This document shows positions 535-57,780 of a DNA stretch of 64,000 nt, in pieces. How positions within the stretch are numbered: position 1 is the first letter of the stretch; every line of letters begins with the position of its first letter. Below the pieces are notes generated by a model, which worked only from the letters and a program-made list of their open reading frames with translations, was not told the origin of the DNA and did not search any database. The position numbers were made by a program, and so were the translations under genes. The stretch is from a virus: positions 1 to 64,000 of IMG/VR virus record IMGVR_UViG_3300033145_001721, one strand, 5' to 3'.

Positions 535-1170
535 CTATCCATATGTGTACAGCTTACATCGTTTAGGCATTGACTTCTCGTTTGAAAAAGACCAAGACCA
601 CGCCTTATGTCGTTTGTAAATTTCCTTCATACTTCCATACCACATTCTGTCCATATGGCACTGTCGAAATTTAGCACCGCTATACAATCCATTTGTATAA
701 ACCGGCGGAATGCAATCTGAACTGAGATGACTCCCATTCGCAAAGCATATGTCTGTCAACATGAGCCTAATCGATAATCTCAGTGTAACAAGATCAAATG
801 TAAACCTATGATCCCCGTGACCATACTCTCCCATTGGATTATGTGTGAAAACACATTCAGGTTTCCATGTATGAATAAACTTGTCAATCTGAATTTGAAA
901 TTGGTTTATCACCATCGGCAATGTAAAATCCTTCGGGTTTGGACTGCGAGGCGACACCCTAGAGAAGTTTGTATCTAACCGATGAAAGGGAACAATTTCA
1001 ATCTTGTTTTGTTTGCTTACTTCTTTCAACGCATCTATGGGTCCAGATCCATATTTTTCGTGATTGTCAGCAAGCGTGATCAACGCTACTTCATGCTCAT
1101 CCCCTTGTAAGATGGGCCACCCAAAAAGGACTTCATCATCCGGGTGTGCCATAATCATTAAGATTCGCAT
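535..1170 (-). CDS. PIG-L/LmbE-family deacetylase
   Basis: This 211-residue protein has the zinc-binding signature of PIG-L/LmbE hydrolases: AHPDDE at residues 8-13 and HGDH at 118-121. The family removes N-acetyl groups from GlcNAc-linked substrates such as GlcNAc-PI, GlcNAc-inositol or bacillithiol precursors. The length is normal for the family. It is the last gene of a ten-gene operon with three glycosyltransferases, an aminotransferase and an ATP-grasp ligase, so an amino-sugar substrate made by the operon is the natural guess. The family is secure; the substrate is inference. Confidence 0.88.
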   Translation of the reverse strand: MRILMIMAHPDDEVLFGWPILQGDEHEVALITLADNHEKYGSGPIDALKEVSKQNKIEIVPFHRLDTNFSRVSPRSPNPKDFTLPMVINQFQIQIDKFIHTWKPECVFTHNPMGEYGHGDHRFTFDLVTLRLSIRLMLTDICFANGSHLSSDCIPPVYTNGLYSGAKFRQCHMDRMWYGSMKEIYKRHKAWSWSFSNEKSMPKRCKLYTYG

Positions 1171-1199
1171 CAGTCAACGCCCCCTATTATGTGTGTGGA

Positions 1200-1727
1200 C
1201 TATTCCAATCCGTCATTTCTTAGGTAGTACTTAATTTGTGATATGACATCGGCCCAACTGTTACGAAAGACTACAACGTGAATGCCCAGAGCTTCAATCT
1301 TCTTAGCAATTTCACGCCGGAAAGTACCTATCGCATTTTCCTGACCCGTCATAAAATCATCCACATAAACATAGGGTTTCATTGCAGTCAAAATCGCAAT
1401 CTTTGCAGCCATGTTTGGAACGACGGTCACACTCTCAGGATTAGGCACTTTCAAATTCTTCAACTGACGAATAGTCAACACACCATCCAAGTCATATCCC
1501 CGTGCTGTCAAATATCGTATTTCATTCACAGCAGACAAACCCCAGAGAGTTTCGAGACATTCTATAGGATTCCCAGTAAAATTATCCATTTCCAACTCAG
1601 GCCAAGTCCAAGCCTTTCTGTGTATCTTACCTCCAGGCCATCGGGGAACCGTATTGCATCTAATCCTACGCCAATGATCAACGATTGTACTATCAACATC
1701 AAAGACAAATAGCTTCTTAGTCTCCAT
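1200..1727 (-). CDS. HAD-superfamily phosphatase
   Basis: The 175-residue product shows the HAD motifs in order: FDVDSTIVD near the N-terminus (nucleophile and acid/base aspartates), YLTARG (motif II), a lysine in the NMAAKIAIL region, and YVYVDDF (motif IV metal-binding aspartates). The size resembles polynucleotide or sugar phosphate phosphatases of phages. I chose the internal ATG at 1727 because GGAGAAG stands 5 nt before it, while the upstream codon at 1751 has no ribosome site. It slightly overlaps the ATP-grasp gene upstream and probably dephosphorylates an intermediate of the operon's pathway. Confidence 0.8.
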   Translation of the reverse strand: METKKLFVFDVDSTIVDHWRRIRCNTVPRWPGGKIHRKAWTWPELEMDNFTGNPIECLETLWGLSAVNEIRYLTARGYDLDGVLTIRQLKNLKVPNPESVTVVPNMAAKIAILTAMKPYVYVDDFMTGQENAIGTFRREIAKKIEALGIHVVVFRNSWADVISQIKYYLRNDGLE

Positions 1728-2787
1728 GCAAACTTCTCCGCAATGATGCATATGCCCGGTCGAACATGGCGTTTTTGTTTAGCCAGTAATTCGTGTAAAA
1801 CGGAATCTCCTTTTGCAATCTGAACTTTTCACGTTTCAAAAATTCAACAAGGGCTGGGGGGCGACTTGGATTATAAAACGGAGGATTCCAATTCGCACGA
1901 TTGAAATATCCCGTAGAAAATCCAGGTTGGACTTCAAGGAAATATGGATTGTTATTCTGGTCGAGAATTACATCAACTCCCTGAAAATTCAATCCTAATA
2001 CACGCACAGACTTAACCAGCATATCCTCATGCTGATGACAAAAATCAGAACAGACTTTTTGACATGTTATAAAAGTCTCTTCCATTTGTGATTCAAAACG
2101 ATTGGTGATAGCAATCCAATCAGAAGGCGATCCCAATCGAGCATACCCTGTAACGACCTTGTCTGCAGCTACAATGATCCGAAAGGACATAATCACATTT
2201 TCGGGTCGCACTGTAGATATGAATTTCACAGCTAGAAGCCTTCGTAACGCCCCACCCTTTTTCAAATCGCCACGAGTCTTTGACATATAAGAATCAAGGT
2301 CTTTCAACGCTTGTTTCGCTTCACCCTCGTCATTCACCAGATATGAATGATAGCCGGTATTAGCGTTGTTAACTCGCACCAACATAGGGAAGTCAAAACT
2401 TTCCTTTTTCTTCTCCCAAAAGTCTTTTGAATTTGAAAATTCAAACCAATCTGGAACTGGAATGGAATTATCCCTCCAGACTTTGAATGCCTCCTCCTTT
2501 GCGTGTGACGCCATCCATCCGCGCGGATCGTTGATATGCTTAATACCTGATGGAAGACGCCTAATTATATCCACACAACGTTTCCATAGATTTTCATCTG
2601 TATATTCTGTATGGAGCTTCCAAACTATCGTATCCGCTTTTGAATGCAAAATCTCGTCCACTGTAATGAAATCTGGCATGTCCTCCAAAACTATTGGCCC
2701 CATATATGTTTCACACATTTCCTTTTCATATGCACGCCAACTAACTCCATGGCCTTTTATGGAGACCACTGAATGTGATTCACTCAT
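1717..2787 (-). CDS. ATP-grasp carboxylate-amine ligase-like enzyme
   Basis: A 356-residue protein with the layout of RimK-type ATP-grasp ligases: an N-terminal pre-ATP domain, the segment from NDPRGWMASHAKE (about 86-98) into the ATP-binding core, FPMLVRVNN with a conserved-type strand, and NNPYFLEVQPGFSTGY (about 288-303) at the metal/ATP site. Such enzymes join a carboxylate to an amine or thiol through an acyl-phosphate. Start ATG has AAAGG 8 nt upstream and overlaps the aminotransferase stop as ATGA, so the two are translationally coupled. An amine made by that aminotransferase could be its acceptor; this is inference. Confidence 0.78.
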   Translation of the reverse strand: MSESHSVVSIKGHGVSWRAYEKEMCETYMGPIVLEDMPDFITVDEILHSKADTIVWKLHTEYTDENLWKRCVDIIRRLPSGIKHINDPRGWMASHAKEEAFKVWRDNSIPVPDWFEFSNSKDFWEKKKESFDFPMLVRVNNANTGYHSYLVNDEGEAKQALKDLDSYMSKTRGDLKKGGALRRLLAVKFISTVRPENVIMSFRIIVAADKVVTGYARLGSPSDWIAITNRFESQMEETFITCQKVCSDFCHQHEDMLVKSVRVLGLNFQGVDVILDQNNNPYFLEVQPGFSTGYFNRANWNPPFYNPSRPPALVEFLKREKFRLQKEIPFYTNYWLNKNAMFDRAYASLRRSLHGD

Positions 2788-3674
2788 TTGTTCAACCTTT
2801 CCGTTTCTAACATTTCTCGAATAGCCACAACAACAGCTTCAAAACTTTGGTCATCACCCGCATACAAAAATAGCTGATATCCTTTCAATGATCGATACAG
2901 ACTAAAACGTTGAGCCAGTGCATTTGTAAAATCGTTTACAACTAACGTAAGCACTGGACCTTCTCCGATTATATAATCGGATGGAATTAAGCTTTCCAAC
3001 AAAGCGCGCCGCTCATCCATCTTAATCCTAAATTTGCCAATATCAAACTTATCTACCGTTTCAAGCAAATCCCAATACAACGGAATAGCAGGTGTGGCTG
3101 GTGTCTCAGATTTCTCCCTGAATCTGAGATATCGACGAAGACTCAAAACACTATCAGTTTCAAGTTTGAAAAACTTATCTACAGACAACCGTTTGCGTAT
3201 ACCTATAATGCTGATGACAGGGTAAGCCCCCAATTGCTTACTGCCGACAGTGGTAAAAATATCAACATCCTCTGGTACAGGATAGTATGGAAAAGCACTT
3301 ACCATATCGGCAAAAAGAATTGATTGGAATGGTTTTAGGTGTGTTGGATTAACTTGTGAACAACTTGTCTCATACAAACAAAAAGCCATGCACAATATTG
3401 GTGGGTCTACTGCGTGAAGCTTTTCAAGTCTATCTAACCTGCCCCCAAATTCGTCTTTGGCGTAGAGACATGTTGTGCCTACATTCAAACTGGAAAGGAC
3501 GATCTCATTAGCCATCGTACCGCTACCAGTAACGAATATGAGATTGAAATCATCCAATCGAGGAAACGTAGTTTTCATTTGGGCTTCTAACAACTGAAGC
3601 AGTTCATGAAACGTATCGTCCCTATGATGATGCACAGGTTTTGCAATCATCGATTTCGCGTTCGGGCCGAACAT
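2784..3674 (-). CDS. class V (fold type I) PLP-dependent aminotransferase
   Basis: The 296-residue sequence resembles the alanine-glyoxylate / 2-aminoethylphosphonate transaminase group: GPNAKSMIAKPVHHHRDD at the start, FVTGSGTMANEIVL for the cofactor phosphate, FADMVSAF with the aspartate that contacts the PLP ring, and TVGSKQLGAYP with the candidate Schiff-base lysine. It is shorter than the usual 350-390 residues, mostly in the C-terminal domain. It is coupled to the ATP-grasp gene by ATGA. Phage-encoded enzymes of this class are rare. It probably makes or converts an amine for the operon's product. Confidence 0.75.
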   Translation of the reverse strand: MFGPNAKSMIAKPVHHHRDDTFHELLQLLEAQMKTTFPRLDDFNLIFVTGSGTMANEIVLSSLNVGTTCLYAKDEFGGRLDRLEKLHAVDPPILCMAFCLYETSCSQVNPTHLKPFQSILFADMVSAFPYYPVPEDVDIFTTVGSKQLGAYPVISIIGIRKRLSVDKFFKLETDSVLSLRRYLRFREKSETPATPAIPLYWDLLETVDKFDIGKFRIKMDERRALLESLIPSDYIIGEGPVLTLVVNDFTNALAQRFSLYRSLKGYQLFLYAGDDQSFEAVVVAIREMLETERLNK

Positions 3675-4786
3675 CTTCCAATCCTTCCATAAACAAATTT
3701 CTTTCCCAGATATTTAAGTACTGCAATACGGTGCATTCCATCCCATGGGTCTTCCGCATTTCTAGGCATCAACCTAATAGGAGTTTCCTGTCCATGTTCG
3801 TTTGCAGTCTTAACCAAATTGATGTAAGACAGAACACGTTCTCTTGCTATTTTTGGGCCCCAAGCTGTAGACCCACAATGTCCATCTCGTTGCCATCTAT
3901 AACATGCAGAATCCGCCAAATTTGATTCATCTGTTCGATTGGATAGCACATCCTTTATGAACTCAGGAAAAATCTTCTGGTAAAATACAGCATTGTAAGG
4001 ATTTAGGGCTATCTGCTTTTCCCAACAATCCTGTATAGGAAGCCGTTTTAATGAACGACTGCGAAACAATAAAACGGTTAAATCTTTCACACGACCTTTC
4101 GCATTCTGCCCCAACAACTTTGCAGGTGTAGAAATACGATGTGTGAAAATCCAATCAGACAAAGGTTTCATTAAATGCTGTAGATATGCAGACTTCGGAT
4201 CGATTACACCTCCTGCATTTTCATCCAGCAGCACAACCAAATACAAACTCTTAGAAGATAATACCCGCAAATATTCAACTAACGCATTTACGCGCATATG
4301 GTAATGAACACAAGACAGCATCGTGATATCTACAATAGGGAACGTATGCATATCAAGTGGCTTCGCATCTGGATGGGCTATGTTAGGTTCCAACGGACCT
4401 ATGCCTCGATTGTATACCTCCAAAGGCATCTTATCATAATAATCACGTGTAACAAGTAATTGATCGAAAGCTCCCAGCCCCGCATCCACCCCAATCAGTC
4501 TATCAAATTTATACTTTTGCCACGCGCGTAAAAGAAACAAACCGGCACTACAACCTACTTCACACAAGGAACTTTGTTCAGATTGTATCCCCAACTTATT
4601 TATATGTTCTAACATCGGTTTTATGTAATGGGTCCACCGGCCATCCCCATATGATCTGTCATTCGTTTTGCCATCCCCAAAATGTGTATTGGGGGACGAA
4701 ATATTGCCATAAGGAACAGACTGATACCAACGTCGCTTTTTCCCAGCTTGATCAATACGCGTTTTCAATTCAGTATCACTCAGCAT
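3647..4786 (-). CDS. SAM methyltransferase-like protein with C-terminal ParB-like motif
   Basis: The 379-residue protein has a Rossmann methyltransferase motif I (SLCEVGCSAGLFLLRAW) followed by RLIGVDAG, so a class I SAM-dependent domain fills the first half. The C-terminal part carries DPWDGMHRIAVLKYLG, the DGxHR signature of ParB/sulfiredoxin-like domains. I start it at the ATG at 4786, preceded by GGAG at 7 nt, rather than 33 bases further upstream inside the previous gene. It overlaps both neighbours. Whether the second domain binds nucleotide or protein is unknown. Confidence 0.68.
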   Translation of the reverse strand: MLSDTELKTRIDQAGKKRRWYQSVPYGNISSPNTHFGDGKTNDRSYGDGRWTHYIKPMLEHINKLGIQSEQSSLCEVGCSAGLFLLRAWQKYKFDRLIGVDAGLGAFDQLLVTRDYYDKMPLEVYNRGIGPLEPNIAHPDAKPLDMHTFPIVDITMLSCVHYHMRVNALVEYLRVLSSKSLYLVVLLDENAGGVIDPKSAYLQHLMKPLSDWIFTHRISTPAKLLGQNAKGRVKDLTVLLFRSRSLKRLPIQDCWEKQIALNPYNAVFYQKIFPEFIKDVLSNRTDESNLADSACYRWQRDGHCGSTAWGPKIARERVLSYINLVKTANEHGQETPIRLMPRNAEDPWDGMHRIAVLKYLGKKFVYGRIGRCSARTRNR

Positions 4787-5480
4787 AATCAATCTCCACA
4801 TTTTTGATGACGACAGCAACAGGAAAAGACCTTATGCCAAGATCCACAAGCTGTATATCATTGATGTCGTCTCGTTTTTTTAGAAACGCATCTATGTCCG
4901 CATATCGAATCATTTGAGGATGATCTATGTTCCCCTGCGTTTTGCGTCTTTCGATTTCATTCTCATCGTCCCCACGACAATCAAACGCCAGGAAGCACAA
5001 TTTGCTCACACGCATACATTCGGAAAGAGTATCAAAGATGTTCCATCCATGATCCAAACAATTATAGCTGACAAGAACATCAATTGAATTATCATCCAAT
5101 GGAATCTTTTCAGCTGCCGATTCTACGTATGTTGCATCTTCGGGCCATTCGCAAAAATCCAAATCAACTAATTCACGTTGAATATAATCGATGAACACCT
5201 TTTTCTTAGCGGGCAAATTGCAAACTTGTAGCACACCCCCAAACGGCCCGGCCCCTACCTCACCCACAATCTTCGTTTCATCTATGTAAAATGGAATGTC
5301 AAATTGGTTCAGAAATTGTTCATAATAAGGCTTCCTGCACACATCCTCCTTGTCCCTATTCTTTATCCACCACGCTATGTTTCTTGCTATGAATTCTCCC
5401 CTAGACTCCAAACCGCCCCTGTGATTTTCCACATCACTCACATGAGTAATCCAATGTAAATTTCGGCTATCTGTACTCAT
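4776..5480 (-). CDS. class I SAM-dependent methyltransferase
   Basis: A 234-residue protein with the methyltransferase-11 type pattern: KIVGEVGAGPFGG (SAM-binding loop), ESAAEKIPLDDNSIDVLVSY (motifs III-IV) and a following LDHGWN. A strong AAAGGAG site lies 7 nt before the ATG. It is the second methyltransferase in a row in this operon and overlaps the next gene. These enzymes usually act on small molecules or sugars rather than DNA, and no target-recognition domain is present. Family secure, substrate unknown. Confidence 0.75.
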   Translation of the reverse strand: MSTDSRNLHWITHVSDVENHRGGLESRGEFIARNIAWWIKNRDKEDVCRKPYYEQFLNQFDIPFYIDETKIVGEVGAGPFGGVLQVCNLPAKKKVFIDYIQRELVDLDFCEWPEDATYVESAAEKIPLDDNSIDVLVSYNCLDHGWNIFDTLSECMRVSKLCFLAFDCRGDDENEIERRKTQGNIDHPQMIRYADIDAFLKKRDDINDIQLVDLGIRSFPVAVVIKNVEIDYAE

Positions 5481-6239
5481 TCAAATACTCCTTTCTGAAA
5501 ATGCATTCCGAACTCCACACTGGCCCCAATGCAACATCATGCATTCGATGGGGGTTTTTTTGCCTTGTATTTGTTTCGTATAATCCCGCATATACTTGGC
5601 ACCGCTTGCCCCCACACACCATTGCTCAGGAAGATAAACAGGAGTGATACCAGTCTTCCATGAAGCACGCCAAAAGGCAAGCGTGCCCCTCATGCAATTC
5701 TGTAGTTCTGCTAAATAAGCAGATAGAAGAATGTGTGCCCTTTCATCCTTCCTATATACAAATAAGGGACTGACGTTACATGCAGGGGCATGTGGTGGGC
5801 CACTGTACTCGTTGTAAGGAATAAAATCCTCTGGCTTTGTATCTGCACCCCTGGCATTGTACTTCACGTATATTCTCGGATTTGTAGGCACACAAACCCC
5901 GAAACGTTCAGCCAATAAAAAGCCATCGGTAAATTCGGAATGTACAATACGCATATCGTCATTGATAACACAATAGGAATCTGCATAAGGTTCTAATGCA
6001 AAACGCGCTGATAGAACATTACAGTTGCGCACACCCCAACGTGGGCTTTCCAACCATTGAAGTTCATTATGAGGAACGATCAATTGTGTGATTTCTTTGG
6101 GTAAATTTCTCTGGTGATCTGTTACCACATAAACGGGAATATTGGGGCTGACTTGTTTCAGATTCTCTAACAACCCATGAACGTTTTTCTCCCTTCCAGG
6201 TCCCAAACTGACGATTAGAATTGCGCGTTTTATTTCCAT
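5481..6239 (-). CDS. putative glycosyltransferase (GT-A-like)
   Basis: The 252-residue protein starts with a hydrophobic strand and a PVYVVTDHQRNL segment typical of nucleotide-sugar folds and has an acidic metal-binding type motif CVINDDMRIV about 90 residues in. It resembles short phage glycosyltransferases but lacks a textbook DxD. Its start overlaps the end of the upstream glycosyltransferase. With its two neighbours it forms a run of three sugar-transfer genes. Assignment to a CAZy family is not possible by eye. Confidence 0.55.
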   Translation of the reverse strand: MEIKRAILIVSLGPGREKNVHGLLENLKQVSPNIPVYVVTDHQRNLPKEITQLIVPHNELQWLESPRWGVRNCNVLSARFALEPYADSYCVINDDMRIVHSEFTDGFLLAERFGVCVPTNPRIYVKYNARGADTKPEDFIPYNEYSGPPHAPACNVSPLFVYRKDERAHILLSAYLAELQNCMRGTLAFWRASWKTGITPVYLPEQWCVGASGAKYMRDYTKQIQGKKTPIECMMLHWGQCGVRNAFSERSI

Positions 6240-7039
6240 CCTAGTCTTTCTTTCTTATCATGCCGAATCATCACATTCGGAAACAAATTCGTTTCGTAAA
6301 TCATCTTTTTCAACTTAGATTTCAAATGAATAACTGCCGCTGTATCTGTATCCCCAATTGCAGCACGAACAAGATTGAAAGCCTCATCCCCCATTGTATC
6401 TGTAGCAGGGCAGTAGTTATATCGTGGGCCAGCGTCAACAATTGACAACCCACGTAATTTCTTCAAAGCGTCTCTTTCCAACCAAGTCGCAACCAAGAAA
6501 TCCTGGCCGACACTCCAGTCCAATCCAAATCGAAAATGATTGTATTTCTTCCTAACTGCTATATATGCATCCCAAGTATTTTCAAATATTTCATCCACGT
6601 GCCAAGCCACCCATTTTCTAACACATGAATTCACACGCAAGTAGAAGATCCCACCATTGATTGGAAACAGATGTTTGTATCCCCTTGTTGTAATCCCTAT
6701 ATCCATACCCCTGTTATCTTCAAATGGTTTGAAAGGATCTGCCTGAAAATACACATCTACATCAGACACAAGAATTTTGTCGTTGTACGAAAAATATTGC
6801 TGAAAACAGTGGAGCAACATTTCAATCTTGCATGTTGCGCGACGTTTAAGCATTTGCTTTGGATCGACCATCTGCCACCAGACATTGTAATTATCAGATA
6901 GAAACGATTTCACAATGTCTGGAACTCCATCGGTAACAATAATGATCTGGACATCAGATGTAACTTCACGCAAACTGTGAATACACGTTTCCAGCATGTT
7001 GTTGTCTCTTTGATGGTACGTGAAGTACGCAAATTTCAT
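6230..7039 (-). CDS. GT-A fold glycosyltransferase
   Basis: This 269-residue protein shows a nucleotide-diphospho-sugar transferase pattern: an N-terminal strand-helix VQIIIVTDGVPD, the metal-binding KILVSDVDVYFQADPF (DxD) near residue 95, and PINGGIFYLRVNS downstream, as in GT8/GT77-like enzymes. The ATG has AAGGAG at 6 nt. It is translationally linked on both sides. The donor sugar and acceptor are unknown; tail or capsid glycosylation, or a cell-surface glycan, are the main options. Confidence 0.72.
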   Translation of the reverse strand: MKFAYFTYHQRDNNMLETCIHSLREVTSDVQIIIVTDGVPDIVKSFLSDNYNVWWQMVDPKQMLKRRATCKIEMLLHCFQQYFSYNDKILVSDVDVYFQADPFKPFEDNRGMDIGITTRGYKHLFPINGGIFYLRVNSCVRKWVAWHVDEIFENTWDAYIAVRKKYNHFRFGLDWSVGQDFLVATWLERDALKKLRGLSIVDAGPRYNYCPATDTMGDEAFNLVRAAIGDTDTAAVIHLKSKLKKMIYETNLFPNVMIRHDKKERLGWK

Positions 7040-7647
7040 TACAATCTCCTTGCTTTGCTACCTTGAACATTTACGATACGCCGAAATCGACGGGATGCTT
7101 GATAGTGTACGATAACTCCATTGTGGACGTTTCGCATTAGATCAAATATCTTACAGTACTGGGCTGGAAGGCATCCAAATTTGAGATCATACTTTTTGGA
7201 GTTTATCAGTTCTTGTAGCAAATCTGGATTGCGTTTTCTCCACTTTTTCTCCATGCACAATTCTGCCCAATCGACAACAAACTTTTGCACAATAGGAGTA
7301 TTGCGAAAAAAGATAGTTCCACCTAAAAGTTCATTACGGTGCCAGGGAAAATCATGTACATGAGCTGCAATGTCTGCAATGAATTTCGGGTCTTCAAAGA
7401 GAATCGGATATCGTTCAAAAACCGCGTCGGCATCAACCCGCAAAATATCCCTATCAGGAAAACGATACAAAGCATCTTGAATAACTCTGCTACAAAAGTT
7501 GCTATTCTTTCTCCAAGTTCCTAGAGATTTGATGGGAGTTAGATCCAACTCCAATTTCCATTTCCGACACGATTCAACAAGGTTCTTCACCTCCTCTTCA
7601 TACGGTGTATCTACCGTATAATGTGACACAATCAAAGGCATTGTCAT
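7039..7647 (-). CDS. GT-A fold glycosyltransferase
   Basis: The 202-residue product contains ILRVDADAVFERYP (DxD-type metal site) near residue 72 and LLGGTIFFRNTP about 35 residues later, the same two-motif layout as its downstream neighbour but with little other similarity. I start at the ATG at 7647, just behind the previous stop, with GGAG 10 nt upstream. It is short for a glycosyltransferase, so it may be a minimal catalytic domain. It belongs to the accessory operon that follows the tail genes. Confidence 0.68.
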   Translation of the reverse strand: MTMPLIVSHYTVDTPYEEEVKNLVESCRKWKLELDLTPIKSLGTWRKNSNFCSRVIQDALYRFPDRDILRVDADAVFERYPILFEDPKFIADIAAHVHDFPWHRNELLGGTIFFRNTPIVQKFVVDWAELCMEKKWRKRNPDLLQELINSKKYDLKFGCLPAQYCKIFDLMRNVHNGVIVHYQASRRFRRIVNVQGSKARRL

Positions 7648-7648
7648 T

Positions 7649-8260
7649 CTAGTCAATCTCCTTTCTATATTCGATATATTCGTTTAGCTTACTTGTAGGA
7701 GAATGACTGATCACTTCCAATCCTGCTTCTTTTATCTTTTCCAATGCCGTCACAAAATGCCCAAAATATTCTGTAAGATGTGTAACACCACTACGATATT
7801 GAGCATGAAAATTACTTCCACCGTTATGATGTAAATCCATTCCCAATAGATGAATCCTTTTCGCCCCTAATATTATTGCTAACTGCATTCCACAAAATCC
7901 GCTATTTTGACCTGTGCAAAATCCATTCCCATTAACATAAATCTGTCCGTCAAATCGAGTGGGTTTGATATGCCAATCATATTGTTTCAAAAAAGGTTCT
8001 ACTCTATGAAAGAATTTGTGATCTTCCCGCATCACAAGAACCTTGCAACATGCACATCCCCAAAAATTGTTAACTGCCGCGCATCGAGCATATACACTAT
8101 CGGCAGTTAAAAAATATGAAGGTTTTGGAACAAACTTAATGGCTCCATTGATTGCAATCGTTGATTTTGAACGTATTTGCTCCCAATCAAAATCTTTCAG
8201 AGAAGGCCCACATCCTATGACATACACATCGTCAGAAATGTTATAATTTCGATCATCCAT
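7649..8260 (-). CDS. DUF115 / GT42-like Rossmann protein
   Basis: A 203-residue protein beginning VYVIGCGPSLKDFDW, then AINGAIKFVPKPSYFLTADS, and later GAKRIHLLGMDLHHNGGSNFH. This pattern is shared by DUF115 and CMP-sialic-acid-transferase-like proteins, which bind a nucleotide or nucleotide-sugar. A paralogue with the same motif order lies at 25458-26111 inside the connector genes. It is the first gene of the accessory operon, 15 nt behind the tail tip gene, so it is probably co-transcribed with the tail. Biochemical activity is unproven for phage members. Confidence 0.68.
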   Translation of the reverse strand: MDDRNYNISDDVYVIGCGPSLKDFDWEQIRSKSTIAINGAIKFVPKPSYFLTADSVYARCAAVNNFWGCACCKVLVMREDHKFFHRVEPFLKQYDWHIKPTRFDGQIYVNGNGFCTGQNSGFCGMQLAIILGAKRIHLLGMDLHHNGGSNFHAQYRSGVTHLTEYFGHFVTALEKIKEAGLEVISHSPTSKLNEYIEYRKEID

Positions 8261-8274
8261 ATCAGTATTCCGTC

Positions 8275-11200
8275 TTATGCTGTCACGTCAACCTTAACTT
8301 CCAAAAGAGCTACAATTCTACATCGAGCATCCGTATCGAATCTGATAGCCTTCCAAGCGGCCCCAACGGTCAAGTAGCTTGAAATATCAATATCTAATTG
8401 ATCTCCACTATACGAACCGATTTGTGCCCCAAATCCAGAACCATCGTCAATATGAAAATCAACGTTTACAGAATTGCTCTCTTCAAAGATATTATAATTC
8501 AAATCGTGATTATGCATAGGTGTTGTATGAGAATGGGTTGGAACCGTAACGCTGTGTGTATGTGTTGCTGTGATATTGTGGGTGTGGCCATTAACGCTAT
8601 GTATATGATTATTAAGTCCATGCATATGAGTAGTAATAGCATGCTGATGACTTCCAGTTCCATCTGCATATTGTGTATATGGTGTTCCGCCCGATGCAGT
8701 ACTACCCGAAGCTCCACCTGTTTGTGTTCCGCTATCTGTTGATGTATTTAGAGAATTCCCAGAACCTGTTGTACCACTACCTCCTGCAACTATACTGGTA
8801 GTCATTCCAGCATCATTAGCGGCTCCTGTAGCGTATGCTCGATAATCCTTTATCTTGAACGAAAGCTTAGCCGAAATAAGAGCAGTAGTTTCACTAGGTA
8901 ACTTAAAATCGAATGTATATGGGTGATTAGCATCTAAAGAATCCTCACCAGTCCAAGCCATTGTTTGTCGCAGCTCAGCATAAGACTCTGCTCTTATAGT
9001 TCCAGCCAAGACTAAGCCAGCATGTAGCAATTGCATTGGAGTTGAACATACATGGACTTCGTTGTCCTTCAAGATAGCTACAACCCAATTGCCAGAAGCA
9101 ATTGCAGTATTAAGATCATCTGTTGACAAAAATCGATCTGTAAAATCTGGGTCCCAATAGATGTATTCTTTTGTAGATAAATCAGCAGTTATCTCATACG
9201 TTACGCCTCGATATCGGAAAGTAATAGGCTCCCCCACAGTTCGAGCATCCCAAGATACGGTTGTTCCCCCTGAATCTGACGTCCATTCACAATTGCTTAT
9301 CCAAGGAATATCAATATTTGGTTGTGGTGGCAACTGTTTGTTAATCAAATCAGAAATGTTACGCCACGTAACAGGAACATCTTCCAAACCAGAACGTTTC
9401 GACGGTGCAGGCCAAATATAATCAGGATTTGGATTGTCTGGATCAAAAGAGTCTTCATCTGTAAACAAAGCAGATGTGTAGGTTTCCACTGTAATTTCAT
9501 AATAGTTATCTACCGACTGTGCGATTTTGATTATTCGCCTCGTTTTTACGGCACTATCTGTTTTCGATGCAGCAGCTACATCGTCTTTCTGGGGGATAGG
9601 ATCTAAGGGTTCTTCAAAAGTTACAGAACACCCGACCTTGCTTGCTACTGTATACGACTTAACCTGAACATCGTTGACACCTGATGAACTATCAAATGCA
9701 CGGATGTAAAATAAATCACCCACAGCCACATCAACTACCCTATCAAATGTAGCTGTGTACACATTTGATTCTACAGACACGACACGATAGTTTTCGCCCC
9801 AATTAGGAGTCTTTGCTTGCAAACAAATAACATCACCCAAATGATGACGAATAGCGTCCTTATGCATTTTGAATTTGTTGATATTTCTGATCAATCGATT
9901 TCGATCTAGTGCAAATTTGGCTATTCGTACAGTGCCACTCCATCGAGTTTCACCGGAGCCTTCGATTTCGATAGAACGCGTGTACACACCACTGTCTTCA
10001 TCGCTGTATGGATATGACGTGCGTTCATATCCAATATCCTCATCACGATAAAACACGTTGATTGTACCCGCCATTTCGCTTTGACCTATCCATACATTCT
10101 CCCAACTGCGAGATATGATGTTGTCCCACGTAACTAAATCTGAATCAGCATCTGCGACTTCAGCATCTAGCCATCCACTTAATTTAGTCCCCTCCCAAAA
10201 CAACTTAGCTCTGCCTACTTGAGCCAATTTGTATGCTAATGAAAACAGATTCTGTTTTGTGTCTACATTAAAATTGCAAACAGATCTTTCTTCTGTGCCA
10301 CCCTTCCCGTCAGGCACAAGAGTAGCGCACCAAACAGCCCATTCGTAAAAGAAAGCAGTATCAATATTCGCAATAGGAATTCCTTCGTATCGCTCTATAA
10401 CGTATGGATCGCCACTTTCCCCTGTACCACTAATGACAGGTTGTGTTACTATATCCAAAACAACCCATGCTCGATTGTTACTGTATTTAAGAGACCAAGA
10501 CATACCATCATAGACATTAACGATTCTGCCCTGCCGGACACCTTTTACATCCAACGACGTATTCAAAGATCCTGTAGCTAATGCCGTTACGCCCATTAAG
10601 ATTCTACCAGGTCGCGTAAAAGCTACGTCTATCACCTCACGTATAGATTTGAGGTATGATTTTGTAGTGCGACGTTCATCGTCAGCAGATGTTGAGCGTG
10701 TAAACTTCACATCATATTGAGTACCCCTTTCTATAATAAAAGAATACTCCGAATCCAGTTCAGATACTTTGATGCTAACGAACTTGGCTGTTAACTGCTC
10801 CCCCGTTATGTTTTCATCATAAATCGTAGACCAAGAATTCAAACCCCTTTTGCTCATCTCGATTTTGATATGTACAGTAGCATGCGTTTCGCTTCCGTCG
10901 TGATGATATTTGATAAGTCCATAAGGAAAAGATATTGTAAACTCAAGATCATCAAAAAAGTTATTTGGAGTAGTAAAAGTTTGGGCTCCTCCGTCCTTAG
11001 TCAATTCCCAATTAAGAGAATACTCAATTTTCTCTTTTTCAAAACCCTCCATCACAGTTTGATTCATTGTGCCCAAGCGTTCTTGAGTAACAACATCTGC
11101 AAAATTGCCAGCCGGTTGGTCGTTTAAGTATTGAATGTTAGCTCCGGCTCCAGCTACCGGACCTTCACCATAATCGATAATTAAATTTAGGATTTCATTA

Positions 11201-35149: not shown

Positions 35150-36253
35150 CTAAATCAATAACCCCTTGGAACCTACGCAATGAGGACTTAGAAACAAACA
35201 TTCCTTATGCCGATTTGTTTTACCACGTGTTTGCTTTGCGCCCGAAGTATTCCCATAACCACCCCCCGATTTCCAATGATGCGCACGCCAACCATACTGT
35301 AACAACTCCTTGTGTTCATCATAGTAACCAGCCAAAACAATACGATATTTCTTACGATTGCCCCGCTTCAAACACCATTGTTGTACATCATGTGCCACCT
35401 GTAAACTATCCTCAGCATAAATTCCCGCAGTACGATCAGCCACGTCACTATAAGGTGGATCAAAGAAAATACCTACAGGTATTCCAGACTTATGCTGCCA
35501 ATCACCACCACAAACACGTGACCAATCACCACAAACTACTCGAACGTTTCGCAGCCTTTCACTGAGTTCCCTAAACCAATCATAAATTGGCGTCTTGTAA
35601 GGTTCTTGCACACCCTCACCCCTAGCCAAATTTGGTATCGAACCTTTAGCATGTACACCCTCACCCCTAGCCAAATTTGGTATCGAACCTTTAGCATGTA
35701 CACCCTTACCAGCATTAGCCAAATTTGGTCTCTGACCTTTTGCATGTACACCCTTACCAGCATTAGCCAAATTTGGTCTCTGACCTTTTGCATGTACACC
35801 CTTACCAGCATTAGCCAAATTTGGTCTCTGACCGGGACATATCAAACCAGCCCCAATCCAACAAGAGGCTGCCCATATATAATATCCAGCCAGTTTAGGA
35901 TCGTAGTATTCGTCATCAGCACATAATCGCTCTAGCAACGTTTCAGTGTTAAGATTGAGCTTGCGTTTACGAGCAATCAAATCAGCATGATTAACAGGCC
36001 AATCACACCACTTAGCTACCTCATCGGGATTAGCTTGCAAGCTGCGCCATACGTTAGCAATATGACCATCCTTATCTACTACAGTTTCCACATGCTGTTG
36101 TGGATTCCAATGAGGCCTTGCCAATAATACAGCACACGATCCGCAAAAAGGTTCCAAGTAATGATTGACATTACCCAGAGCCTTCCAAACCCTAGAGGCC
36201 ACTGTGGCTTTACCACCAAAATACGAAAATGGGGCTTTCAAACATTTCGACAT
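35150..36253 (-). CDS. Dam-like DNA adenine methyltransferase (D12 class) with internal tandem repeats
   Basis: A 367-residue protein with FSYFGGK at the N-terminus (SAM pocket), YLEPFCGSCAVLLARP, and FFDPPYSD (DPPY catalytic motif) about 255 residues in. These are diagnostic of D12-class N6-adenine methyltransferases. Between these motifs lie three copies of GQRPNLANAGKGVHAK and two of the 15-residue variant GSIPNLARGEGVHAK, an insertion unknown in ordinary Dam. It probably protects phage DNA from restriction or adjusts packaging. The repeats may alter recognition or be a spacer loop. Confidence 0.85.
   Translation of the reverse strand: MSKCLKAPFSYFGGKATVASRVWKALGNVNHYLEPFCGSCAVLLARPHWNPQQHVETVVDKDGHIANVWRSLQANPDEVAKWCDWPVNHADLIARKRKLNLNTETLLERLCADDEYYDPKLAGYYIWAASCWIGAGLICPGQRPNLANAGKGVHAKGQRPNLANAGKGVHAKGQRPNLANAGKGVHAKGSIPNLARGEGVHAKGSIPNLARGEGVQEPYKTPIYDWFRELSERLRNVRVVCGDWSRVCGGDWQHKSGIPVGIFFDPPYSDVADRTAGIYAEDSLQVAHDVQQWCLKRGNRKKYRIVLAGYYDEHKELLQYGWRAHHWKSGGGYGNTSGAKQTRGKTNRHKECLFLSPHCVGSKGLLI
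35606..35833. repeat. in-frame minisatellite: about two 45-bp and three 48-bp units
   Basis: Within the adenine methyltransferase gene, units of 45 bp and 48 bp stand head to tail, each almost identical to its neighbours of the same length and sharing the core TAGCCAAATTTGGT. Since all units are multiples of three, copy number can change by slippage or recombination without a frameshift. Confidence 0.9.
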
Positions 36254-36267
36254 TTTACATCCCAAAT

Positions 36268-52751: not shown

Positions 52752-53324
52752 ATGGCAGCGAAAAAGACAAACAAAACCGCACCGAAGGGAACCCACAAAA
52801 GCGCCCCGAAGGCACCCAAGACTCTGGTCGTGACTCGCAAGAACGGTGTGAGCCTGATGAAGACATTCGGATTCACGGCACCCCACAAGCTCACCAACGA
52901 AAAACTGCTCATGCGGCTGCGTAAAATCGGTCAGTACATGGAAGCGTTTGAGGGCAAGCTGTCTGGTGATGATCAAAAGCTGGTGGACACCATTATCGCT
53001 GCTGGCGATAATATCAGCGTTGACGTCAGCGATCCGGCATTCGCTGAGCCGAAGAACCCGGACGGAAAGAAAACGGATACAAAAAAGAAGTCAGCCAAAA
53101 AGACGGCCAAGAGGATTGATTGCGTATGTGCCATGCTCAAGAAACTACCAGACAAGGGCGCTTCTATCGAGCAAGTGGCGAAGCTCGCCAACCAGATGTA
53201 TGTGAAAGGTGGTGGGGATGACAATGTCAAACAGACCATCCATCACTTGCGTGTGGTGATGCCCACGCTCCAGAATTTCGACATTATCAAAGTTGAGGAT
53301 GGCAAACTCTTTCCGGTCAAGTAA
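52752..53324 (+). CDS. Lys-rich protein with C-terminal winged-helix-like domain
   Basis: A 190-residue protein: basic disordered start (MAAKKTNKTAPKGTHKSAPK), a middle helical domain, a second Lys-rich linker (KKTDTKKKSAKKTAKRID), and an end resembling a winged helix (VCAMLKKLPDKGASIEQVAK, NVKQTIHHLRVVMPTLQNF). The DNA is GC-richer than its surroundings, which suggests recent gain. A histone-like or other DNA-coating role is plausible from the charge. A strong terminator follows. Confidence 0.62.
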   Translation: MAAKKTNKTAPKGTHKSAPKAPKTLVVTRKNGVSLMKTFGFTAPHKLTNEKLLMRLRKIGQYMEAFEGKLSGDDQKLVDTIIAAGDNISVDVSDPAFAEPKNPDGKKTDTKKKSAKKTAKRIDCVCAMLKKLPDKGASIEQVAKLANQMYVKGGGDDNVKQTIHHLRVVMPTLQNFDIIKVEDGKLFPVK

Positions 53325-53340
53325 GATTCTTTCTGTTCGA

Positions 53341-53381
53341 AGCCCCGGTCGGTTTTATCACTCGCTGACCGGGGCTTTTTC
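53341..53381 (+). terminator. intrinsic terminator
   Basis: AAGCCCCGGTC (53341-53351) pairs perfectly with GACCGGGGCTT (53368-53378) over a 16-nt loop, followed by TTTTT. It ends the replication operon before the radical SAM operon. Confidence 0.92.
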
Positions 53382-53456
53382 ATTGGCCTTCCAAATAGCC
53401 CCTTCTAAGCTGTAGTCCCTCCGCATCCACACCGATATACCCTCAAACGACATATA

Positions 53457-53482
53457 GCCCACTACGCGGGTCGTCTGTGGCC
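53457..53482 (+). other. dispersed 26-nt element, copy B
   Basis: GCCCACTACGCGGGTCGTCT followed by GTGGCC matches 21 of 26 positions of the element at 394-419, including the closing stem apart from one base. Both copies are followed within about 45 nt or less by CCAGAATATT. Confidence 0.45.
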
Positions 53483-53558
53483 TAAAATCAAAAGGTATGG
53501 GCTGTGCCGGACGCCCTTTAGCCAGAATATTCTTTGTATTAGTCTGAATTCTCTTCTT

Positions 53559-53571
53559 TGCGATAATATCT
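53559..53571 (+). promoter_or_regulatory. extended -10 promoter box
   Basis: TTGCGATAATATC with TTAGTC 17 nt upstream of GATAAT. It lies about 40 nt before the first radical SAM gene and would drive the four-gene operon on its own after the terminator. Confidence 0.6.
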
Positions 53572-53608
53572 GTAGAGTCCAGTTGATATTTGTTAGGAGC
53601 CAAATTCA

Positions 53609-54658
53609 ATGAAAGAATACAAAAACCCGTTTTGCATACGCCACGCCCACATGAGTTGCCCACTACCAATAACCCTAGAATCCTATTGGGCTTGTGAAGC
53701 TGACTGCCATCACTGCCCAGGTCATAAGCTGAATGAAATATGGGGGAAAGAGCAACGAGTCACTGATCCAGTCAAAGCCATACACAAATTACACAACGCT
53801 CTGCGAAACCCCCACCCACGCAGTCCCCTAGCGGTTGCACTGGCCATGAAGAAGACACTCTGGCTGGGAAGAAAGACTGATCCCTACCAACCGTTGGAGG
53901 CTAGAACTAAAACCACTAGAACCATCGTCCGTGGCTTGAACAAATTGAAGTGGTCGTATGTAGTTTGCTCTCGGTATACTGATCTGATGAGGCGCGATGA
54001 AGATCTATTTCGTCAAGGGCAATCAACATTACTGGTGGAAATCACTCCAGGTGGAGAAAGTGATTGGTCTTTATTTGAACGTAAGCGAACTACCCCAATA
54101 GAATTTCGATTGTCAGCAGCTGCTCGTTGGAATGCTCTTGGTATAAATGTTGGTGTTCGGGGAGAACCTTTTATTCCCGGTTATCATACACCTAAACAAT
54201 TTGAAGATATGCTGCGAAGGCTGAAAAGCTATGGATTGTATAGCTACAATACATACAATCTCCATCTGAACGAATACAATGCACGCAGGTTGAGCAGTAT
54301 TGGATTGGACATAGAAAAGATTTGGCATCATAATCAAGATCGGTTGTGGCGACCGATACAACGCCAGCTTTGTGAAATAGCTGACAAACAAGGTATCATT
54401 CTAGGCTGTCCCGATTTCGTCAACGTGCCAAAAGGATGGTGCAGTCGTACCAATACGTGTTGTGGTGTATCTGTACCTAACCCATTCAAATTCAATACAC
54501 ACTGGTGGCGCAGGCTTTTGCAAAATGGTAAAACCCCTGAACAAACCATCAAGAAAACATGGGAAGGTATAGGTACAGAGGATGATCAGCAGGAAGGTCG
54601 AGCGATAATATTAGGAACGAGTAAAAACAAATATACAATAAAGGATGCTGAGTTATGA
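53609..54658 (+). CDS. radical SAM protein 1 (spore-photoproduct-lyase-like)
   Basis: A 349-residue protein with the cluster motif CEADCHHC (C29, C33, C36; CX3CX2C) for the 4Fe-4S/SAM centre. Further segments match the SPL-type group: KTDPYQPLE, LLVEITPGG and INVGVRGEPFIPG. Extra cysteines near the end (WCSRTNTCC) may hold another cluster or substrate. It starts an operon of four coupled genes. It should generate a 5'-deoxyadenosyl radical; a nucleic-acid substrate is a guess from the SPL likeness. Confidence 0.78.
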   Translation: MKEYKNPFCIRHAHMSCPLPITLESYWACEADCHHCPGHKLNEIWGKEQRVTDPVKAIHKLHNALRNPHPRSPLAVALAMKKTLWLGRKTDPYQPLEARTKTTRTIVRGLNKLKWSYVVCSRYTDLMRRDEDLFRQGQSTLLVEITPGGESDWSLFERKRTTPIEFRLSAAARWNALGINVGVRGEPFIPGYHTPKQFEDMLRRLKSYGLYSYNTYNLHLNEYNARRLSSIGLDIEKIWHHNQDRLWRPIQRQLCEIADKQGIILGCPDFVNVPKGWCSRTNTCCGVSVPNPFKFNTHWWRRLLQNGKTPEQTIKKTWEGIGTEDDQQEGRAIILGTSKNKYTIKDAEL

Positions 54659-55380
54659 TCTATACTATTGGAAACCAAAAGTTGGATATACCTGAAACCG
54701 GATCAAAGCGGAAGATACGAACACCACGTCAGGTTGTACCATGGCGGGACATGGCTGAAACTTGTCGCAATGTAGATGCAATTTGCAGCATTATTCAAAA
54801 ACCTCCGTGTACAATTGTGGACGGTATAGCGCGTGCTGGATTTTGGGGTGCTGTGTTTCGTAACAGGTGGCCCAAATGTAAACTGCTGATGAATGGAGAG
54901 AAAGAAGATTGCATACGTGTTCTCAAACAAAATTTCCCTCAAGATAGACACGTTCAAAAAAATATCAAACATTGGTGTCCTCCCGTATCTGATTTAGCCA
55001 TATTAGATTTTGATAAGTTCACACTGAAAAAGATGGACCAATGGGAAAGGGTTTTGTCTACATGGGCGGCAAGAACGCAGCACTTTATATTTGTGGATGG
55101 TGCTTGTTTTGGATTTAAGTTTGGTACATTAAAATCCTACAATATAAGCAATCCCAATGAGTATTACTATTTGTTGAACGAGCGTTTGAAAAAAATTATA
55201 AGCAAAAGAATTGTAGCTGTATCTGCATTTGGTAACGCTGCTACAATTCTTATGCAAGACCGACACCCCCGCAAAATCAAATTTGTACCCCCAACAAATT
55301 TATCTTTATCACGGGGAAATAAAGTCTACAAATTCAACCCCAATCCTAAAAGGTCTAGGCTTGGATTAGTTAACAAATGA
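54655..55380 (+). CDS. SAM-methyltransferase-fold protein
   Basis: A 241-residue protein overlapping the genes on both sides by 4 bases. CTIVDGIARAGFWGAVFRNR is a plausible motif I, KCKLLMNGEKEDCIRVLKQN the second strand, and LAILDFDKFTLKKM the motif IV region, giving a Rossmann methyltransferase fold with an unusual catalytic loop (no NPPY or PC). It may be a methyltransferase or a SAM-fold partner lacking activity. The rest is basic, with a Lys/Arg-rich tail. Confidence 0.52.
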   Translation: MIYTIGNQKLDIPETGSKRKIRTPRQVVPWRDMAETCRNVDAICSIIQKPPCTIVDGIARAGFWGAVFRNRWPKCKLLMNGEKEDCIRVLKQNFPQDRHVQKNIKHWCPPVSDLAILDFDKFTLKKMDQWERVLSTWAARTQHFIFVDGACFGFKFGTLKSYNISNPNEYYYLLNERLKKIISKRIVAVSAFGNAATILMQDRHPRKIKFVPPTNLSLSRGNKVYKFNPNPKRSRLGLVNK

Positions 55381-56372
55381 TAAATTGGACTGATGTATTG
55401 TCGGATGTTCAAGAGTTCAAATGCAAGAAAAAGACTCTTGGACAGCTAAATTGCTTAGCTGTTGATTCTCTATACGGATCAATGTGGGGACTCAATCATC
55501 GATACATGACTTTGCAGCAAGCTCTGACCAAAGATTTTTCAAGTATAACTGCTTACGCAATTCGTCGCATTCATCGCTTACTGGAAATTGGTCCTGTTTC
55601 ATTTCGTCCTCGCAAACTTCCAAAAGTTCGTCGTATAGGATTCGGCACATATGGATGGAAGTACGACTCTGAACTCATAGCTTTAGCGGTCAAGCATAAC
55701 CTTCTGATTGATACTGCCGAAGGTTATGGCTATGGCAAAGTGGAAACTGAATTAGGCAAAGCTTTGGTACATCACAACGCTGAAGTCACTACCAAGGTAT
55801 CACGATCTCACATGTCCCCAAAAGCTTTGCCATCAGCTGCACTCCGCAGCCGTAACAAACTTGGACTTATTCCTCACTACCAACTCCACTTTCCTCATAG
55901 CCTATATTCCGATGAGCAAATTGGGCAGTCGTTAGTACAAGTCCGTGAATCCAAAACGATCCAATCTATTGGGCTTGGCAATTGCAGCGTAGATATGATT
56001 GAATCTATGCAAGCTTTTCTGTCAGATTATTCTGGTGATGTTATTCGTAGTGTTCAAATGCGATACAATTTGGCCGACCGAAGAATTGAAAATGCATTGA
56101 TGCCTTATTGTCGAAAAAGAGGCATTGCGATAATAGCTTACAGTCCGTTGGGTCAAAAGTTTTCTACTTTGCAAACACCCACATTGAGTCATATAGCGCG
56201 GCGCTATCATTGTACGACGGCACAGATTGCTTTGGCTTGGGTGTTGCGAATGCCTGGGATTATACCTATCCCCCGTACTAATAATGTAGATCATTTGAAA
56301 GACAATATAAAGGCACTTAGTATTCATTTGACCAAAAACGAAATACACAAACTCAACAACGCTTATTTATGA
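55377..56372 (+). CDS. aldo-keto reductase with extra N-terminal domain
   Basis: A 331-residue protein. From residue 83 it is an aldo-keto reductase barrel: IDTAEGYGYGKVE (catalytic D112, Y117), TTKVS (K140), QLHFPH (H171), GLGNCS, and IPIPRTNNVDHLKDNI for the NADPH 2'-phosphate region. All four catalytic residues are present. Residues 1-82 form an added helical domain (LYGSMWGLNHRYMTLQQALT) of unknown type. Aldo-keto reductases are very rare in phages. Coupling to radical SAM genes suggests it reduces their product or a carbonyl intermediate. Confidence 0.82.
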   Translation: MINWTDVLSDVQEFKCKKKTLGQLNCLAVDSLYGSMWGLNHRYMTLQQALTKDFSSITAYAIRRIHRLLEIGPVSFRPRKLPKVRRIGFGTYGWKYDSELIALAVKHNLLIDTAEGYGYGKVETELGKALVHHNAEVTTKVSRSHMSPKALPSAALRSRNKLGLIPHYQLHFPHSLYSDEQIGQSLVQVRESKTIQSIGLGNCSVDMIESMQAFLSDYSGDVIRSVQMRYNLADRRIENALMPYCRKRGIAIIAYSPLGQKFSTLQTPTLSHIARRYHCTTAQIALAWVLRMPGIIPIPRTNNVDHLKDNIKALSIHLTKNEIHKLNNAYL

Positions 56373-56379
56373 GGATGTT

Positions 56380-57780
56380 ATGGACTACTATGAATTGCGA
56401 TCCGTTTTAAGTCGCATTATCCCACGTGAAACTTCATTGGTACCAACACACCATATGGTTAACGCCATAAAAGAAAAAGGGCGCAAACAAAACTACTCTG
56501 AATATAAATTGAACCAAGATAAATGGGTGAAACAAGAACGACTATTGAATGATCAAGAGATTTCTTCATTTATTGAAATCAGCTGCCGTGCAGCTGCGTG
56601 TCCAATGCCACTGAATTTGGATATCTGGGATGGTATTCTTTGTCCTTATGGATGTAAATACTGTTTCGCCAATCTATTTCGCGCATCTCTTTACACCGCC
56701 TTTTTTGATAATAGCAAAACACTAGGGCTGCGACATTGTAACCCTACAAAATACAAAAAGGAAATGGACAAACTTTTCAAGCATCGGGGAGAAAATCCAC
56801 ATGACGTTTCCAATTCTTTAGCCAAAGCCATCGCCATGGGATTGCCTATTCGCTTCGGAATTCGCTTTGAGGATTTTATAAAAGCAGAAGAACGACATGG
56901 CGTCAGCTTAGAGTTAATGAATTATTTAGCTGATCACAAATATCCCCTAATGATCAACACTAAATCAGATTTGGTATGTCATGATGAATATGTAGATGCC
57001 ATGATTCGAACAAAATCAGCTGTTCACGTAACACTCATATCCAGTAACAATAAAATCTTGAAAGCGTTAGAGCCCAATGCACCTTCCTATGAACGCCGAT
57101 TGGAAGCTATGCGAATTCTTTCTGCTGCAGGTATCAGAGTTGTTGCCCGCATTGAACCCTATCTGGTATATGTTACAGATCAAAAGGAGGATGTTGAAAA
57201 ATACATCAAAGACGTTTGGGATGCAGGTGTACGAAACATCACCTTTGATAACTATTCGTACAGTGCGAAAAACCCAGGTATCCGTCAAGCGTTTCGGAAT
57301 GAAGGTATTGATTTTGATCGGTTGTTTTTGTTGGGGTGTGATTCACAACCACTCAGCAGCTTATTGTTGGGTTCGTTTATGCAGATGTTTCGTGATGCAG
57401 GTTTCAGCTGTTCGACTTTTGACATGGGTAATGTTCCGGATAACGATCAGAATATATGTTGCGAAGTCGGTGATTGGTTTGGTTCCGGATTCAATTATGG
57501 TTGTGCTGTTATGGCTGCCAGATTCATTCAAAGTCGTAAAGGGCGTGAAACAACATGGAAGAATTTTGAAAGTTGGGTGGATGATCACGGAGGTTTTCTC
57601 CGTGATACATTGAAGCATGAAGTTCATCAACTGTGGAATTGCGAAGGGCTAGATGCATACAGTCATAGTTGGGCTAGAGGATTGGAAGCTGTGGGCAGCG
57701 ATAGTTCAGGTTTAGTGTGGGTTTGGCATGATACGGACTTCCGATTGGATCTCTACGATAATATAGCTAGAGGTTTGTAG
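56380..57780 (+). CDS. radical SAM protein 2 (spore-photoproduct-lyase-like)
   Basis: A 466-residue protein with CPYGCKYC (C88, C92, C95) and, downstream, LMINTKSDLV and LEPNAPSYERRLEAMRILSA followed by GIRVVARIEPYLV, which is the SPL/Rv2578c-type pattern. It starts 7 nt after the aldo-keto reductase gene. It is larger than the first radical SAM protein, with a C-terminal Trp/Asp-rich extension. Two members of one radical SAM branch in a single operon suggest two steps on one substrate. Confidence 0.8.
   Translation: MDYYELRSVLSRIIPRETSLVPTHHMVNAIKEKGRKQNYSEYKLNQDKWVKQERLLNDQEISSFIEISCRAAACPMPLNLDIWDGILCPYGCKYCFANLFRASLYTAFFDNSKTLGLRHCNPTKYKKEMDKLFKHRGENPHDVSNSLAKAIAMGLPIRFGIRFEDFIKAEERHGVSLELMNYLADHKYPLMINTKSDLVCHDEYVDAMIRTKSAVHVTLISSNNKILKALEPNAPSYERRLEAMRILSAAGIRVVARIEPYLVYVTDQKEDVEKYIKDVWDAGVRNITFDNYSYSAKNPGIRQAFRNEGIDFDRLFLLGCDSQPLSSLLLGSFMQMFRDAGFSCSTFDMGNVPDNDQNICCEVGDWFGSGFNYGCAVMAARFIQSRKGRETTWKNFESWVDDHGGFLRDTLKHEVHQLWNCEGLDAYSHSWARGLEAVGSDSSGLVWVWHDTDFRLDLYDNIARGL
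57754..57768 (+). promoter_or_regulatory. possible -10 box inside a gene end
   Basis: TACGATAATATAGCT at the end of radical SAM gene 2 matches CGATAATATA of the recurring box and lies about 50 nt before the next gene. It also codes for part of the protein, so it may be chance. Confidence 0.3.

Follow-up and report, generated by a model that had tools for sequence, protein, structure and literature searches.

A radical SAM gene module with constant and exchangeable halves in uncultured viruses and its possible role in DNA base hypermodification

The first 64,000 bases (hereafter the window) of the 74,972-base IMG/VR virus record IMGVR_UViG_3300033145_001721 were analyzed. They contain a gene module built around two radical S-adenosylmethionine (SAM) proteins, rSAM1 (P1) and rSAM2 (P4), together with a methyltransferase-like protein (P2), an aldo-keto reductase (AKR; P3), a predicted sliding clamp (P6) and a predicted transferase (P7). 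On sequence comparison across related viruses, the module is well supported as a linked gene set. With about even confidence, we propose that it is a phage system for the post-replicative hypermodification of DNA bases composed of a constant and an exchangeable half, for which we infer both the substrate and the chemistry.

Constant and exchangeable halves

Two family searches of IMG/VR were carried out, one with rSAM2 and one with P6 as bait, the latter without requiring rSAM2. The P6 scan used a narrower alignment, the first one being too diverse; its seed came from module loci, and P6 relatives too distant for this seed could exist elsewhere. Relatives of the module were found on 66 contigs, of which 51 were left after removal of near-copies.

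In the dereplicated set, 40 P6 loci extend at least 2.5 kb upstream of the gene, and rSAM2 is located there in all 40. For rSAM1 or its variant this holds in 35 of the 38 dereplicated loci with 5.5 kb upstream, and P7 is located downstream in nearly all loci. The constant half consists of rSAM2, P6 and P7, which travel together.

The slot for the partner enzymes is filled differently among the 51 families. A PALP-type pyridoxal phosphate (PLP) enzyme was found in 20, an AKR in 11 and a DUF362 protein in 4 of them, the PLP and DUF362 labels being backed by Pfam matches, and 16 have none of these. The three types are mutually exclusive: no locus has two of them, and in the records that were searched in full, the other types were absent throughout. 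DUF362 is accompanied by a different type of rSAM1 (4/4). On the rSAM2 tree, the slot type requires 22 changes, compared to 23.5 with shuffled labels. The slot has thus been swapped so often that a backbone signal is undetectable. On the rSAM1 tree, the AKR label requires 3 changes compared to 9.1 with shuffled labels (0 of 500). The eight rSAM1 genes found with P2 and AKR fall into a single clade (Shimodaira-Hasegawa-like approximate likelihood ratio test, SH-aLRT, 100), and the rSAM1-P2-AKR cassette thus moves as one unit. Both trees carry long-branch warnings, and that of rSAM1 is a quick reconstruction. In the rSAM1 proteins linked to P2 and AKR, the third cluster cysteine is followed by M, V, L or P, and in those linked to the PLP enzyme by Y. 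rSAM1 and its partner enzymes are replaced as a unit.

An earlier note on this DNA had described the genes of rSAM1, P2, AKR and rSAM2 as a tight operon. The open reading frames (ORFs) are indeed intact on the + strand, with ATGA overlaps among the first three and a last gap of 7 nt. The terminator and the −10 box described before the operon were not recovered in a consensus scan of the + strand (53250-53609). The order rSAM1-P2-AKR-rSAM2 was seen again in L058, L105, L107 and L133, so that a chance association of the four genes is of no concern. The genes had also been taken for parts of one pathway, a view that would have suffered had they never occurred together elsewhere. The co-occurrence check gave the opposite outcome, as the genes were found together in many phages. 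Due to this co-occurrence and the joint inheritance of rSAM1, P2 and AKR, a single pathway is well supported. The four-gene unit itself was drawn too small, since the genes permanently associated with rSAM2 are those of P6 and P7 downstream, and AKR and P2 are replaceable.

Single-sequence (exact-peptide) scans of IMG/VR with P4 and P1 gave no match, and neither did a strict motif scan. The looser motif YGCxYCFA led to two viruses with a radical SAM pair, and alignments built from these led to many more. tblastn searches of INPHARED and PLSDB yielded distant generic radical SAM proteins only, with no clear relative of P1, P2 or P4 in INPHARED, and none of the cultured phages of INPHARED has the module. 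The sole bacterial match is a 3.5-kb contig of a Bacillota metagenome-assembled genome (MAG), which is probably viral. Among 398 genomes scanned from the phylum of this MAG, the MAG itself was the only match. As the INPHARED phages lack a close relative and the one bacterial contig is probably viral, the module is known only from uncultured viruses. A literature search, whose coverage did not extend to the primary papers on thymidine hypermodification, found no description of the module. The gene module is new within the scope of these searches.

Table 1. Genes of the module and its surroundings in the window
Gene	Position	Strand	Description
P0	52752..53324	+	basic protein, conserved C-terminal domain; before rSAM1 in many relatives
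P1, rSAM1	53609..54658	+	radical SAM protein, exchangeable half
P2	54655..55380	+	methyltransferase-like protein of the AKR cassette; conserved together with AKR
P3, AKR	55377..56372	+	aldo-keto reductase, extra N-terminal region of ~80 aa
P4, rSAM2	56380..57780	+	radical SAM protein, constant half
P5	57816..58241	+	small, possibly helix-turn-helix; weak PHROG regulator match (9.4e-4); module membership uncertain
P6	58269..59006	+	predicted PCNA-type sliding clamp fold
P7	59081..59857	+	predicted tandem-GNAT protein, DUF2156/MprF/FemX fold; probable aminoacyl or acyl transferase
P8	59941..60957	+	N6/N4 DNA methyltransferase (PF01555, 7.6e-14); optional neighbour
P9	60980..62005	+	DnaN-like polymerase clamp (phrog_947, 4.1e-27); conserved module flank in most relatives

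Protein families and predicted folds

The CX3CX2C clusters previously noticed in P1 (C29/33/36) and P4 (C88/92/95) are intact and are kept in the relatives, except for one rSAM1 family with CX2CX2C spacing. P4 matches the Pfam family Radical_SAM (PF04055; 4.8e-7, 30.5 bits, cut-off 29.5). P1 has no Pfam match; in a profile comparison it proved to be a paralogue of P4 (probability 99.6, 284 columns). The cluster motif, the Pfam match of P4 and the paralogy of P1 place both proteins in the radical SAM superfamily. The identity of P4 to 16 relatives ranges between 33 and 61%. Invariant cysteines were found at C17, C29, C33, C36, C267, C284 and C285 of P1 (14 aligned sequences) and at C74, C88, C92, C95, C360 and C361 of P4 (17 aligned sequences). 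Both proteins have a conserved CP ahead of the cluster and a CC pair toward the C-terminus, and the extra conserved cysteines suggest a possible further metal site.

The two proteins had been called similar to spore photoproduct lyase (SPL), which is correct at the level of the superfamily and not at that of the family. With the lyase model TIGR04070, P4 reached 12.7 bits (cut-off 400) and P1 was not listed. The closest NCBIfam families are Rv2578c and PA0069, with scores far under the family cut-offs. The proposed action on a base is plausible, and the label of SPL-type chemistry is too specific. The distant relation to the lyase (0.046) and the clamp-fold partner would also fit a clamp-guided repair of damaged phage DNA (photoproducts, adducts) by both radical SAM proteins. 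Such repair would need neither mutually exclusive, often swapped partners nor a protein with an aminoacyl-transferase fold; in addition, P1 and P4 lie outside the lyase family, and repair is given only a small chance.

The rSAM2 gene is split in two in L074, L075, L106, L107, L117 and L123 and forms an ORF of ~600 aa in L069 and L076. These interruptions and enlargements look like introns with homing endonucleases or inteins, which favour conserved, important genes. L053 has a third gene of this radical SAM family, also with the CC motif, near its rSAM1-rSAM2 pair (3-1058, − strand; G001). In two distant viruses (L025, 2390-2605, − strand; L052, 8582-8953, + strand), the region between the rSAM1 and rSAM2 genes encodes Cys-rich small proteins (CxCGH...CxxCxC) without a Pfam match.

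P6 is predicted to adopt a PCNA-type sliding clamp fold over its whole chain. Its AlphaFold2 model (predicted local distance difference test, pLDDT, 88.4) resembles PCNA with a Foldseek value of 8.7e-10 and a Z of 15.9 (root-mean-square deviation 4.0, 217 residues aligned), and no sequence match was found among solved structures. A relation of P6 to the DnaN-like clamp P9 as a paralogue was considered and dropped, as the profile comparison gave no relation.

For P7, the AlphaFold2 model (pLDDT 92.7) predicts the tandem-GNAT fold of the DUF2156/MprF/FemX group. The nearest structure is 2hqy (Z 21.5), a DUF2156 protein without known function, followed by the catalytic domains of L-PGS and MprF (15-16), the aminoacyl-tRNA-dependent peptide synthase Sba18 (13.1), FemX (~12) and acyl-CoA GNATs (up to 11.8). 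The Pfam model LPG_synthase_C matched 10 of 16 P7 members, with a best value of 1.5e-11. P7 is probably an aminoacyl or acyl transferase, the fold by itself being no proof of the donor.

P3 matches Pfam Aldo_ket_red (PF00248) with 4.8e-36 and 124.8 bits (cut-off 24), which makes it a member of the AKR family. The four catalytic residues pointed out before (D112, Y117, K140 and H171) are present and kept in 8 of 8 aligned AKRs. At the start of the gene (55377-55620), the N-terminal extension of ~80 aa carries the motif GSM[WF]GLNxR; it lies beyond the Pfam match and is common to the AKRs of the P2+AKR cassettes. The methyltransferase fold ascribed to P2 is a tentative assignment taken from a distant relative in L135, which matches Methyltransf_25 below the cut-off (9.4e-5); P2 itself has no Pfam match. 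A short C-terminal tail of the form G/P-[FL]-[FL] was found in 8 of 14 P2 proteins, compared to 16 of 370 other ORFs (Fisher 1.6e-7, the motif having been chosen after the tails were seen). The hydrophobic tails resemble the GFF start of polymerase-associated glycosylase/exonuclease proteins, and the tail of P2 may be a clamp-binding peptide. In two AKR loci, a flavin adenine dinucleotide (FAD) oxidoreductase of the DAO family is found in the place of P2.

Small molecules are the usual substrates of AKR, PALP-type and DAO-type enzymes, and the product of the module could accordingly be a small molecule or a modified precursor nucleotide, with no polymer edited in place. A dedicated sliding clamp would be out of place in the synthesis of free nucleotides. 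Furthermore, a hydroxymethylase of the thymidylate synthase (TS) type, with which the synthesis of modified pyrimidine precursors usually begins, was not found in 21 records, which may be incomplete; the TS family (PF00303) was absent from all of them and control genomes were positive. This explanation is distinctly unlikely. ThyX was rejected as a linked gene, since it occurs in only 3 of the 21 records. A search with Tet_JBP (PF12851) gave no match in the records, the control being silent as well.

Proposed function

In most relatives, the module sits between a DnaB-like helicase and the clamp/polymerase block. A virus whose replisome is of archaeal type (PolB, RFC, ERCC4 nuclease) carries it as well; there, the matches of rSAM2 (3e-106) and P7 (1.4e-25) are clear with models built without that virus. 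The module is therefore more than a part of one inherited replication block. A D12 methylase was found in or beside the module in L104, and N6/N4 methylases in or near it in several viruses. Relatives of P8 are located near the module in L114 and L090, and weaker ones in L059 and L063. In L133, a Mom-family DNA-modification gene (7865-8776, + strand; PF25680, 6.3e-33) lies just 3′ of a complete rSAM1-P2-AKR-rSAM2-P6-P7 set.

In the proposed hypermodification of DNA bases, P6 would encircle DNA and hold the enzymes on the freshly replicated phage DNA. Each of the two radical SAM proteins would split SAM to a 5′-deoxyadenosyl radical, with which a C-H position of a base would be activated. rSAM2 would perform the common radical step, and rSAM1 with its cassette would define the side chain. 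By analogy with spore photoproduct lyase, the thymine methyl group would be the simplest guess for the activated position. The side chain would be finished by the cassette enzyme, with the AKR reducing a carbonyl with NADPH in this virus and the PLP enzyme performing amino-acid chemistry elsewhere. P7 would attach an acyl group, which would probably be an aminoacyl residue supplied by aminoacyl-tRNA. The frequent swapping of cassettes would fit an arms race with host enzymes recognizing modified DNA.

Several points weigh against the proposed function. AKR, PLP enzyme and DUF362 are all missing in 16 of the 51 members, some of which are truncated, and P6 is marginal (6e-4) in the virus with the archaeal-type replisome. 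Bacterial-type phages may have a replication backbone in common, so that shared ancestry accounts for part of the linkage to replication genes. Finally, the functions of P6 and P7 rest on predicted folds, and the product and the substrate are inferred.

An unlikely alternative is the modification of RNA, for example of a host or phage tRNA or rRNA, in which the radical SAM pair and the transferase-like protein would produce a nucleoside during infection, with P6 merely being a replication or transcription clamp. Many radical SAM enzymes target tRNA or rRNA, and folds similar to that of P7 bind aminoacyl-tRNA. The DAO-family FAD oxidoreductase and the methyltransferase-like protein in the slot recall the tailoring of tRNA uridine by MnmC. 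This explanation is at odds with the tie of a clamp-fold gene to rSAM2 in all testable loci and with the position of the module within the replication block; in addition, no tRNA gene was found in the window.

Modification of a protein in the manner of radical SAM maturases, which often target a protein encoded alongside, is the least probable explanation of those considered. P0 would be the candidate target, since its gene lies directly before rSAM1 in many loci: a hidden Markov model of the C-terminal domain of P0 matched one ORF per locus in 38 loci, directly before rSAM1 or its variant rSAM1'. With 180-290 aa and a conserved C-terminal domain, P0 is unlike a short precursor peptide, and a core peptide pattern was not seen.

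None of these alternatives covers the link to a clamp and the exclusive swapping as well as hypermodification of DNA bases. In a more specific version, which is put forward tentatively and is rather doubtful, a dedicated clamp would carry the radical SAM pair along phage DNA. Radical C-H rewriting would act directly on the normal base, aminoacyl groups would then be transferred from tRNA, and whole cassettes would be exchanged between phages. If this version is true, it would represent a new class of DNA modification machine. The phage DNA hypermodifications described to date begin with a small number of starting reactions. If a radical-based route linked to a clamp and using swappable tailoring enzymes exists, it would be new nucleic-acid chemistry, would help to account for the way in which uncultured phages diversify their DNA against host defences, and would provide an enzyme source for the C-H functionalization of DNA.

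Two further regions of the window were noted. On the − strand, a Dam-like ORF (35150-36265) contains an internal tandem repeat, GQRPNLANAGKGVHAK, in three copies and degenerate ones. Behind the tail genes, likewise on the − strand (535-8260), a run of genes encodes enzymes of the small-molecule or glycan type, namely a PIG-L deacetylase, a RimK-type ATP-grasp protein, a methyltransferase, an MptE-like protein and two nucleotide-sugar transferase-like proteins. These enzymes could act in decorating the virion or the surface of the host.

Comparison with known systems

Rv2578c, PA0069 and the 'radical SAM mobile pair' (NCBIfam) belong to the same radical SAM subgroup as P1 and P4. The mobile pair of Bacteroides likewise consists of two adjacent radical SAM genes on mobile elements, whereas it has a neighbour with a metallo-beta-lactamase (MBL) fold and neither a clamp nor an MprF-fold partner. 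Spore photoproduct lyase shares the radical SAM fold, and its family acts on thymine in DNA; P1 and P4 differ from it in their partners, in the extra conserved cysteines and in the low score of P4 given above. The aminoacyl-tRNA-dependent transferases MprF, L-PGS, FemX and Sba18 have the tandem-GNAT fold predicted for P7, which differs in being soluble, ~10% identical and part of a phage module.

For the Campylobacter phages CP220 and CPt10, many radical SAM genes were described as metabolic and non-essential, some of them forming an interchangeable module (PMC2853527). These are not close relatives, as INPHARED gave no clear relative of P1, P2 or P4.

The hypermodification of thymidine in phages such as M6 and ViI is similar to the proposed function in being a multi-gene phage pathway with tailoring enzymes that are alternative between phages. 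Thymidine hypermodification also employs radical SAM and PLP enzymes. To our knowledge, the radical SAM pair and the clamp-fold and MprF-fold proteins have no counterpart in it. The pathway is reported to start with a deoxyuridylate hydroxymethyltransferase or a TET-like enzyme, together with a 5-hydroxymethyluracil (5-hmU) DNA kinase (Lee et al. 2018 and 2021, cited in PMC11946847 and PMC11955845). The module differs from this known 5-hydroxymethyluracil route in the absence of a TS-family protein from the 21 records searched. Until the product is identified, the function of the module is best classed among the variants of phage nucleic-acid hypermodification.

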